Assembly (NCBI RefSeq): GCF_964204645.1
Contig: NC_134036.1
Coordinates: 5,963,600 to 6,027,599, forward strand
Source: Tubulanus polymorphus
Taxonomy: Eukaryota; Nemertea; Palaeonemertea; Tubulaniformes; Tubulanidae
DNA: 64,000 nucleotides
Reading direction: 5' to 3'
Shown: piece after piece, positions 56,836 to 62,306 of the stretch
Position numbering within the stretch: the stretch's first letter is position 1
Layout of the letters: each line of letters opens with the position of its first letter
Made by a program: the position numbers and the translations under genes
The notes under the pieces: generated by a model
Told to the model about the DNA's origin: nothing
The model's input: only the letters and a program-made list of their open reading frames with translations
Databases searched by the model: none

Positions 56836-56998
56836 ATGAGCTTTTCAAAACCACAATGGGAAATCATAAATCTATTCACATCACACCTACGTCGAGAAGA
56901 GAGGACAGGCCGAAATATCCCAAACAACAACACCTACGAAAGAATTCGGGCCGCTCTCAAGAAAAAAGTATCCACAGAGTCGATTAAGAGGAATTACG
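56836..56998 (+). CDS. Transposase-PHD exon 1
   Basis: ATG at 56836 (MSFSKPQWEIINLFTSHLRR), donor GTATGT. The frame is open upstream to 56767, but this ATG fits best with the helix that follows. Confidence 0.8.
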
Positions 56999-61000: not shown

Positions 61001-62306
61001 GCTCATCAGAATTTATGAAATCACTTTTTCAAAACTGGTTTCAAAATAATAAATTCCATCATATAAGATTTAAACCAAGGGAAACCCCATGTCTCAGAAA
61101 ACATCTCAGAAAACCATTGCATTAGGCCACACCAAAAGAAAACCCTGTTTCTCGGGCCCGACCGACCTGATATTTCGTCATTTCAAATAATCATTTTCAG
61201 AATAAAATATAATTATCATATTCCTGACTAAAAATTTAGTCCAGTAAAAACTATTTACGGCGACCTACCCACTGATAGAAGAATAACCGATATTTTTTTT
61301 CTATACAGAAAATAAATGTCCTACCTACCTACCCATTTTGGGATCATTCATTTATTACGTACGCATAAAATTTGAATTTTTCAACCCCCCTCCCCTCTGT
61401 ACGCAAAATCGGCCATTTTTGTCATATACACTAAGCATCACAGAACGCAATTGCACTGACCCCTCCCCGAATGCATACGTAATAAATGAATGACCCCTTA
61501 CAGTGCCATACAGGTTCAAGGAATGAAGTATCTATTTGGTATGCTTATGATGCTAATAACATTAAATTTTAATTTTAATTTTAAAATAAAATTTAATTTT
61601 TCAGAGATGGTTGGAAAAGAAAAAAGTGACATACGACCAAAATCTAAACAAACAACAACTTGTTAAACTATGTCAAACTCAGTCACCAAATAAACTTTAC
61701 AAATCAGAGCAGCTGATTCTCGATTCTGGACACGAGCTACTGATATTACCAGTCAAACATTGCGAGCTCAACCCAATTGAAATGGTTTGGCACCAGATTA
61801 AAGCATATGCAAAGAAAAAAAACACAACAAATAAACTGAAGGATGTGGAAAAGCTAATCATTGAAGGGAGAGAACAAGTCACGGCGGAAAATTGGAGAAA
61901 CTACGAGGATCATGTGAAGAAAATCGAAAACGAATTATGGATTAAGGACAAATTATCAGACAATCTAGTAAAAAATTTTGAAACTAATCATATTGTAATA
62001 AATCTGAATGATAGTGATGAGAGTGAGGATGAGAGAGAAAATGAGAGAGAGAATCAGGGTGCGGAAGATGACAGTGAGAAAGATGGAAATATGTCTAGTG
62101 AGGGAGATGAGAGCGAGAATGAGGTTTGTGCGGTGTGTGGAGAGAAGGATGATTGTGGAGATGATCAGCTGGTTGAATGGGTAGCTTGTAGTATGTGTGA
62201 TCGCTGGTTCCATGTTTCTTGTTTAACCAATCATGATTCAGAAAATTTCAAATGCAAAAGATGTGAAGATATTCTATGCAAATCAATGTACTTTTTGGAA
62301 CCGTAA
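56836..62306 (+). CDS. IS630/Tc1/mariner-type DDE transposase with C-terminal PHD finger, 7 exons
   Basis: Seven exons with GT/AG borders join in frame to 1,590 bp (529 aa). Exons 1-3 give two helix-turn-helix-like parts (ERIRAALKKKVSTESIKRNY; KRVSIWKWIRRIGFRWLKKS) expected for DNA binding. Exon 4 has the first catalytic Asp (IVYLDETWINS). Exon 6 has the second (SLIVMDQASYH). Exon 7 has the Glu in CELNPIEMVWHQIKAY. The last two are separated by about 83 residues, far more than the usual 34-39, recalling the DD82E ('Sailor') group. The C-terminus (about residues 470-529) has an acidic stretch, then CAVCGEKDD, CSMCDRWFHVSCL and CKRC, a Cys4-His-Cys3 PHD finger of the kind that reads histone tails. 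All catalytic residues are present. It may be an active element or a host-adopted gene; I cannot find clear terminal inverted repeats around the whole gene. Confidence 0.85.
57359..57581. mobile_element. MITE A ([22 protein letters not shown]), intron 1
   Basis: About 220 bp with long inverted ends (GGCTAAAAAAAATGATACC then TTGTTTCTCCGC; reverse at the right end) and TTA/TA flanks. Inside are GGCCGGGTCATTTTAGTAA and GGCGGCCGGCCGGGTCAAC. Three copies are found in this window, all within introns of the transposase gene. Confidence 0.85.
57647..57779 (+). CDS. Transposase-PHD exon 2
   Basis: AG before, GGTAAG after. Encodes SVTEPSKTGRPSIELDQFDQ, the 'GRP' linker typical between two HTH motifs, then IIRREIHDMTRDKKYITIDG. 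Confidence 0.85.
57968..58130. mobile_element. MITE B (TIR GGGGTCATTCATTTATTACG)
   Basis: Ends GGGGTCATTCATTTATTACG and a reverse GGGATCATTCATTTATTACG. Reverse copy at 61339-61500 and a fragment at 63692-63740. Confidence 0.85.
58274..58493. mobile_element. MITE A, reverse copy, intron 2
   Basis: Reverse complement of the element at 57359-57581 with few differences. Confidence 0.85.
58585..58692 (+). CDS. Transposase-PHD exon 3
   Basis: AG before, GTAGGC after. Encodes IYARIKNKISVDLKRVSIWK and WIRRIGFRWLKKSGK, the second HTH with the family's 'GFRW' ending. The frame would close at once without the splice. Confidence 0.82.
58845..58978 (+). CDS. Transposase-PHD exon 4, first catalytic Asp
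   Basis: Encodes FSHERPDIVRQRRNYLRKI and KQIVYLDETWINSRDTMQ. The Asp in YLDETW is the first residue of the DDE triad. Confidence 0.88.
59545..59771. mobile_element. MITE A, intron 4
   Basis: Third copy of the 57359 family, same orientation, preceded by ATTA and followed by TTAG. A pair of CACCAGGGGG words lies on both sides at some distance. Confidence 0.85.
59867..59922. repeat. Pogo/Tigger-like MITE, short deletion form
   Basis: Only the two ends remain, head to head: CAGTCAACCCCCACGATATA and a reverse CAGTCAACCCCGATATACCG. Confidence 0.75.
60087..60287 (+). CDS. Transposase-PHD exon 5
   Basis: Encodes GEWTENWEKGMTNFSHPPCK, the CKDCGRVEQ word, then ARLIILDAGSRNGFVPGANL and DYHHQMDG. This is the stretch between first and second Asp of the catalytic core. 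Confidence 0.85.
60491..60547. repeat. Short palindromic MITE-like hairpin, intron 5
   Basis: AGGGGCCGGTTGCTCAAA mirrors, imperfectly, CTTTGAGCAGCCAGCCCCT about 20 bp later. Resembles a minimal form of the GGGGCCAGTTGCA family. Confidence 0.65.
60708..60856 (+). CDS. Transposase-PHD exon 6, second catalytic Asp
   Basis: Encodes DIFETWLEDQLIPALEEPSL and IVMDQASYHLCLVKES. Asp of MDQASYH is the second residue of the triad, with Gln where Asn is common. Confidence 0.87.
60928..60997. repeat. (TA)n microsatellite, intron 6
   Basis: About 70 bp of alternating T and A. Confidence 0.95.
61122..61338. repeat. MITE C, left copy (TTAGGCCACACCAAAAG)
   Basis: TTAGGCCACACCAAAAGAAA then TTTCTCGGGCCCGACCGACC. 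The full 210 bp reappears in reverse at 63011-63693, split by a later insertion. The inverted pair encloses the last transposase exon. Confidence 0.75.
61339..61500. mobile_element. MITE B, reverse copy, intron 6
   Basis: Reverse complement of 57968-58130, directly adjoining MITE C. Confidence 0.85.
61605..62306 (+). CDS. Transposase-PHD exon 7, catalytic Glu and PHD finger
   Basis: 234 codons including stop. Starts RWLEKKKVTYDQN, then HCELNPIEMVWHQIKAYAKK with the catalytic Glu, a helical part, a Glu/Asp/Ser/Asn-rich stretch and the PHD finger from CAVCGEK to CKRC. The acidic linker and PHD are in the same exon as the end of the catalytic core, so the fusion does not depend on splice prediction. 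Confidence 0.92.
   Translation, partial: RWLEKKKVTYDQNLNKQQLVKLCQTQSPNKLYKSEQLILDSGHELLILPVKHCELNPIEMVWHQIKAYAKKKNTTNKLKDVEKLIIEGREQVTAENWRNYEDHVKKIENELWIKDKLSDNLVKNFETNHIVINLNDSDESEDERENERENQGAEDDSEKDGNMSSEGDESENEVCAVCGEKDDCGDDQLVEWVACSMCDRWFHVSCLTNHDSENFKCKRCEDILCKSMYFLEP

Follow-up and report, generated by a model that had tools for sequence, protein, structure and literature searches.

The stretch of DNA analysed here, which we call the window, comprises 64,000 nucleotides of the palaeonemertean Tubulanus polymorphus (assembly GCF_964204645.1, contig NC_134036.1, positions 5,963,600 to 6,027,599) and carries a gene for a DDE transposase with a C-terminal PHD finger. The gene is part of a transposon that is bounded by terminal inverted repeats (TIRs) and extends past the window edge. 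Splicing seven exons in silico through six GT-AG introns, all on the + strand, yields a protein of 529 amino acids (aa) with no frame break. Exon 1 (56836-56998) encodes the N-terminal, presumed DNA-binding region; exon 2 (57647-57779) contains a GRPS motif that would be AT-hook-like, judging by its position; and exon 3 (58585-58692) weakly matches HTH_33 (aa 92-130, E 0.015, below the cut-off). The first catalytic aspartate, D168, occurs in exon 4 (58845-58978) within VYLDETW (58942-58944). Exon 5 (60087-60287) continues the catalytic domain, and exon 6 (60708-60856) supplies the second aspartate, D271, within VIVMDQASYH (60779-60781). Exon 7 (61605-62306) encodes part of the insertion between the second aspartate and the glutamate, the glutamate itself, E355, within HCELNPIE (61779-61781), an acidic linker, the PHD finger and the stop codon.

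The residues of the triad D168, D271 and E355 are separated by 102 and 83 residues. The DDE_3 model of Pfam matches the protein with E 3.9e-10 and passes its cut-off; matches to the IS630 model fall below theirs, at 4e-5 with exon 7 and 1.3e-8 with a relative that has no PHD finger. Published Sailor transposases carry the motifs (I/V)VYLDET, VIIMDNA and HCELNPIEL with spacings from DD78E to DD111E, DD83E being reported in Mollusca, Annelida, Arthropoda, Echinodermata and Stramenopiles (PMC8533490). The corresponding motifs of the window protein, IVYLDET, LIVMDQA and HCELNPIEM, are close to these, not letter for letter, and the spacing of 83 falls within the published range; the presence of TIRs is a further likeness. 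A weak HeH/LEM-like match covers part of the insertion between D271 and E355 (61605-61676, + strand), with E 0.002 for the whole protein and 0.03 for exon 7 alone, both below the cut-off, and none of the three stretches from relatives that cover the region gave a match. Because the weak match is confined to the window protein, we do not claim a HeH/LEM domain.

The acidic linker (aa 430-469; 62004-62123, + strand) has a net charge of -16 and leads into the PHD finger (C471-C516; 62127-62264, + strand), whose own net charge is -6. The zinc ligands C471, C474, C491, C494, H499, C502, C513 and C516 satisfy the C4HC3 pattern, which arose in none of 20000 shuffles of the last 100 aa. A profile built from divergent relatives only recovered the finger at 1.3e-22; among 500 shuffles of the same 100 aa, none did better than 0.011. 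By phmmer, the nearest solved chain is the PHD of ALFIN-LIKE 3 (E 1.6e-5), with whose tryptophans W488 and W497 of the finger align. PHD fingers of the ALFIN-LIKE family read methylation of lysine 4 of histone H3 (H3K4). Since the PHD and E355 share one exon and reading frame, the fusion of those parts is independent of the predicted splicing. When the PHD was used as a genome query, with E up to 5, there were 22 matches, and the top 11 fall in Sailor-type loci treated here. The next-best matches outside such loci, at C4:6893225-6893368 (30%, E 0.0013) and C10:1036808-1036990 (42%, E 0.0015), lie in frames that stay open for 90 and 126 aa, respectively, and could belong to host genes or other elements.

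These results agree with a sequence-only reading of the locus, made beforehand, in which seven exons joined unbroken, the D, D and E residues were all present with a spacing of about 83 between the last two, and a Cys4-His-Cys3 PHD finger lay behind an acidic stretch in the last exon, the finger now being backed by profile and shuffle tests. Its comparison with the long-spaced DD82E group, Sailor, likewise holds, the motifs and spacing matching the published consensus.

The element proper begins at 56453 with ATGTCTATTTATTAATG. Its body occupies 56453-64000 of the window (+ strand) and ends at window-equivalent position 65449, giving a length of about 8997 bp (~9.0 kb) with the TA duplication excluded. 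The left TIR, about 229 bp when counted from the C that precedes the target TA (56451-56452), spans 56450-56678 (+ strand). The right TIR is outside the window, at C12:6028823-6029051, which corresponds to window-equivalent 65224-65452. The two TIRs are 98.7% identical in the window copy (W), and the corresponding values are 100% for the copy on contig C10 and, over 212 bp, 94.8% for that on contig C6.

We searched the genome assembly (267.8 Mb in 77 contigs) for further copies. With exon 7 as query there were 24 matches, four of them at 97-100% across the full query, and four loci (W, C10, C4 and C6) hold one long unit that includes all six introns. Since the copies retain all six introns, they are not retrocopies. 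Every intron keeps its GT and AG in the three other long copies, and the frame is intact in W, C10 and C4. The C4 copy has a W-to-R change three residues past D168 and no right end, and the frame of the C6 copy, in which both ends are present, is broken by a stop and by a frameshift from a single inserted base. Coding and intron substitutions relative to W, gaps excluded, amount to 0.38 and 0.57% for C10, 0.82 and 1.04% for C4, and 1.07 and 1.96% for C6, with 0.37%, 0.68% and 2.22%, respectively, outside the gene. Coding and noncoding divergence from W do not differ for C10 and C4; for C6, the coding value is lower than that of the introns (p 0.02) and of all noncoding sequence (p 0.008). A fifth two-ended copy, L047 on C1, is a deletion derivative without exons 3, 4 and 7. 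Elsewhere on C1, L052 is a 1.2-kb piece of the right end, and two further single-end matches lie at C6:16.91 Mb and C4:12.64 Mb. The near-identity of the copies suggests recent movement.

Short repeats, some direct and some inverted, occur in the introns of the element. One family of about 227 bp occurs in intron 1 (57351-57581, + strand), intron 2 (58273-58502) and intron 4 (59545-59771) and is also matched in the three other long copies; further short repeats lie at 57967-58140 and 61327-61500, and intron 6 contains a (TA)34 run (60930-60997). Separately, exons 5-6 (window 59583-60922) are embedded in other sequence within a repeat of about 4.8 kb with shared ends (L048:1081-5845 on C1; L049, L050 and L051), the C1 and C4 copies of which are 99.9% identical. 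No inverted repeat longer than 60 bp was found at its ends in L048.

Target sites were read from 23 two-ended insertions, namely 19 short elements, L047, W, C10 and C6. TA flanks the element on both sides in every one, and 20 conform to C-TA-element-TA-G, the outer base being C on the left in 22 (exception L044) and G on the right in 21 (exceptions L032 and C10). Five insertion-free places homologous to the flanks of the miniature element L033 read AACTAGCAC, with CTAG intact; L033 also lacks 8 bp further downstream that are present in three of these five empty sites. For L030, a partial empty-site match agrees (65 bp, 5 past the junction). The TA flanks and the L033 empty sites together indicate that the target duplication is TA within CTAG, and they rule out a TATA duplication of the kind published for Sailor. 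For the window copy itself this target is predicted from its flanks, the empty sites coming from a miniature element. With DDE_3, TIRs, TA flanks and empty sites, the element displays the features of the IS630-Tc1-mariner (ITm) group, and the further copies with TIRs and TA sites for which the sequence-only reading had proposed a search were found.

The ends of the element are far more numerous than its long copies. The terminal 25-mer, with up to 3 mismatches, occurs 216 and 212 times on the two strands (0 for the reversed control), which allows about 214 two-ended elements at most. A TIR search gave at least 62 matches (40 scored of 295 candidates). Fifty of the 62 show 78-81% identity; 42 of them pair into 21 units spanning 540-550 bp. 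One such short element, L028, has TIRs of 167 bp that are 82% identical to those of W, and the mean identity of the 19 short elements fetched was 94.3%. We infer that these 0.55-kb miniature elements may have been moved by the window transposase or a relative. Another short repeat, one end of which reads ATGTCTATTTCAAC, has its first ten bases in common with the TIR of the window element and is possibly a related miniature family; it occurs in intron 5 (60316-60384), in the right flank of the C10 copy and in the left flank of L044.

Within the same genome, a PHD finger is found in the window family, in its 89% relative (L013/L014), in family B (L016 and L020) and in family C (L017 and L063). 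By segment, families B and C are 43-63% and 41-58% identical, and all relatives outside the window family bear lesions or are fragments. One window-family fragment, L015, gives no PHD match, that stretch having been removed by a deletion. Read by eye, agreement with the window gene in position and phase was seen in L020 for intron 2 at its two borders and intron 3 at its donor, and in L017 for intron 6 at its two borders and intron 5 at its acceptor. A separate lineage (L018, L019 and L057-L062; 25-51% identical by segment) has no PHD in any of its eight fetched stretches at E 0.001. Six of these eight loci, L059 and L061 being too short, cross at least one intron position of the window gene without an intron, and those whose C-termini are covered (for example L018, L019, L057 and L060) run into an acidic stretch. 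Further weak matches lie, for example, at C3:20.15 and C6:11.97 Mb. An unrooted tree separates the PHD and PHD-less groups with support of 0.996 and 100; several of its rows are short fragments, and L015 was placed in the PHD group by family, despite its missing PHD match. Pattern scans of viral and prokaryotic collections, which would miss distant relatives, confirmed no close one.

L013 and L014 (C2:12.80 and 13.98 Mb), apparently one duplicated locus, are inverted, 1.2 Mb apart and share identical stops, and a match pair at C2:12.68 and 14.09 Mb mirrors them, a pattern that points to either a large duplication in inverted orientation or an effect of the assembly. Next to L018, a copy without the PHD, one frame matches reverse transcriptase (RVT_1, 3.3e-19) and another, of 267 aa, has no Pfam match (L018:3743-4981 and 7143-7943); judged by eye, the latter may resemble capsid proteins of Polinton-like elements. 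A rearranged or nested copy is seen at L020:6464-7857, where a PHD fragment is enclosed by exons 1-3 of family B, which run on the opposite strand.

Two further claims of the sequence-only reading bear on these relatives. It had named multi-copy relatives without the PHD finger as evidence against its interpretation; these do occur in the separate lineage, whereas in the window's own family only L015 lacks the finger, and by deletion. Tc1-like elements with spliceosomal introns are reportedly present in molluscs. The claim that an active element would not usually have six introns loses force, since recently moved copies carry all six, relatives share those borders that can be read, and some Ginger1 genes have 1-4 introns (PMC2836005).

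The finger appears to have been maintained. For exon 7 of W and L013, the ratio of nonsynonymous to synonymous substitution (dN/dS) is 0.29 in the catalytic part and 0.05 in the PHD, the lowest value of the exon (4 synonymous and 1 nonsynonymous substitution, p 0.004), so the finger seems to have been under selection while the families diverged. The acidic linker has 0 synonymous and 8 nonsynonymous substitutions in the same comparison, and may conserve charge, not sequence.

Other transposase systems with comparable C-termini are known. In RAG2, a PHD finger comes after an acidic hinge; the finger reads trimethylated H3K4 (H3K4me3), and the two parts together recruit to that mark and restrain transposition (preprint PMC11844651; PMC8355894). 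Like the window protein, the RAG1/RAG2 system, with ProtoRAG and Transib, combines a DDE recombinase with a hinge and then a PHD in the same order; unlike it, RAG belongs to another transposase lineage and has the finger on a second subunit, whereas the window element has hinge and finger on the catalytic chain. Among the listed Ginger1 families, Ginger1-9_HM shares a C-terminal PHD, and introns occur in some genes, but the core is integrase-like, the target is CCGG/CCGT, and the PHD stands alongside Ulp1 (PMC2836005). In piggyBac and PiggyMac, too, the DDE domain is followed at the C-terminus by a zinc finger of the cross-brace type, though in another superfamily, and the zinc sites of PiggyMac are His-Cys2-His and Cys4, not a C4HC3 PHD (PMC8086355). 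A word search of the Sailor paper finds neither PHD nor exon, and 'intron' just in a reference title (PMC8533490). In full-text literature searches, whose reach excluded most subscription journals and bioRxiv, no listed paper was recognised as describing a Tc1/mariner or Sailor element with a PHD. Within that reach, a PHD-fused, intron-bearing Sailor-type transposon is a new variant.

We conclude that the window element is almost certainly a recently mobile, PHD-fused transposon that is Sailor-type by its catalytic motifs and spacing. The fuller reading that we favour, and regard as probable, is of an autonomous transposon of the ITm group, Sailor-type, with the linker and PHD acting as a reader of the histone H3 tail; taken by itself, a histone-reading role of the PHD is somewhat better than an even prospect. 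H3-tail reading is favoured because the two tryptophans align with those of ALFIN-LIKE 3 and the finger follows an acidic stretch.

Several observations weigh against this reading. Of the two profiles suggested beforehand, DDE_3 cleared its cut-off and the Pfam PHD model did not (E 9e-4, 19.6 bits against a cut-off of 24). The second tryptophan is replaced by leucine in the degenerate relative L063. Published Sailor elements mostly duplicate TATA, have TIRs that usually begin with GT or CC, and reach up to 6.98 kb (PMC8533490); the window element, in contrast, is about 9.0 kb long, duplicates TA in CTAG and has seven exons and a PHD, and the element proper starts with ATGTC (window copy) or AAGTC. 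Several divergent loci belong to the PHD-less lineage, which means that not every Sailor-type element needs the finger. The constraint on the PHD amounts to five substitutions in a single comparison, a small sample, and among intact copies, where changes are too few, the ratio is non-significant (pN/pS 0.24-0.67, p 0.09-0.51).

A more specific version of H3-tail reading is a tentative possibility, in which the window protein is a single-chain analogue of the RAG2 tail. The linker and PHD would block the target-DNA site until methylated H3 displaced the finger, the element would move only into open, marked chromatin, and the PHD would have been added once to a Sailor-type lineage that was already acid-tailed.

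We think it unlikely that the finger instead binds DNA at the ends of its own transposon, after the manner of the piggyBac Cys-rich domain. That domain does bind DNA, the window finger shows the conservation expected of a part that binds the ends, and the TIRs are long. However, the piggyBac domain is positively charged, whereas the PiggyMac finger, which binds H3 weakly and does not prefer methylated lysine, is negatively charged (PMC8086355), as are the finger and linker here; the other lineage, moreover, shows no such finger. Contacts with non-histone partners, for example in a ligase-like role or in dimerisation, are distinctly doubtful. PHD, RING and FYVE domains share a fold and vary in target (PMC8086355), but the best solved match is an ALFIN-LIKE PHD with both tryptophans aligned. 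Capture of the PHD on a single occasion, as a neutral passenger with no use in transposition, is very unlikely. The several PHD-less Sailor-type loci of this genome would fit such a history, but in the single comparison that allowed a test no other part of exon 7 had so low a dN/dS as the PHD, and broken relatives, 41-63% identical by segment, still carry it. Adoption by the host, which the sequence-only reading had raised and which would have kept the transposase frame under host selection, draws on the intact multi-exon frame with its chromatin-type domain, the purifying selection seen in the comparison with L013 and the lower coding than intron divergence from C6, yet it is practically untenable, and we reject it because near-identical copies occupy four places with TIRs and TA flanks, besides a deletion derivative, many short elements with similar ends and coding and noncoding divergences from C10 and C4 that do not differ.

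On the favoured reading of an H3-tail reader, the gene would be transcribed and spliced and its product may still be active. The N-terminal part of the 529-aa transposase, by analogy with its family, would bind the ~229-bp inverted repeats, and DDE chemistry would excise the element and insert it at TA inside CTAG. The same transposase or a relative would mobilise the 0.55-kb miniature elements. The acidic linker and PHD would read the H3 tail and either bring the transposase to marked chromatin or release its activity there, the mark probably being H3K4 methylation in open chromatin; the finger may thus steer, gate or do both.

Transposons need means of choosing their landing sites. With near-identical copies, known ends, a CTAG target and a candidate miniature substrate, the window transposase would let steering or gating of transposition by a histone reader be tested directly, and the PHD-less lineage of the same genome offers a natural comparison. 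A PHD-fused transposase of the ITm group would also stand as a separate counterpart to RAG2 and its PHD.

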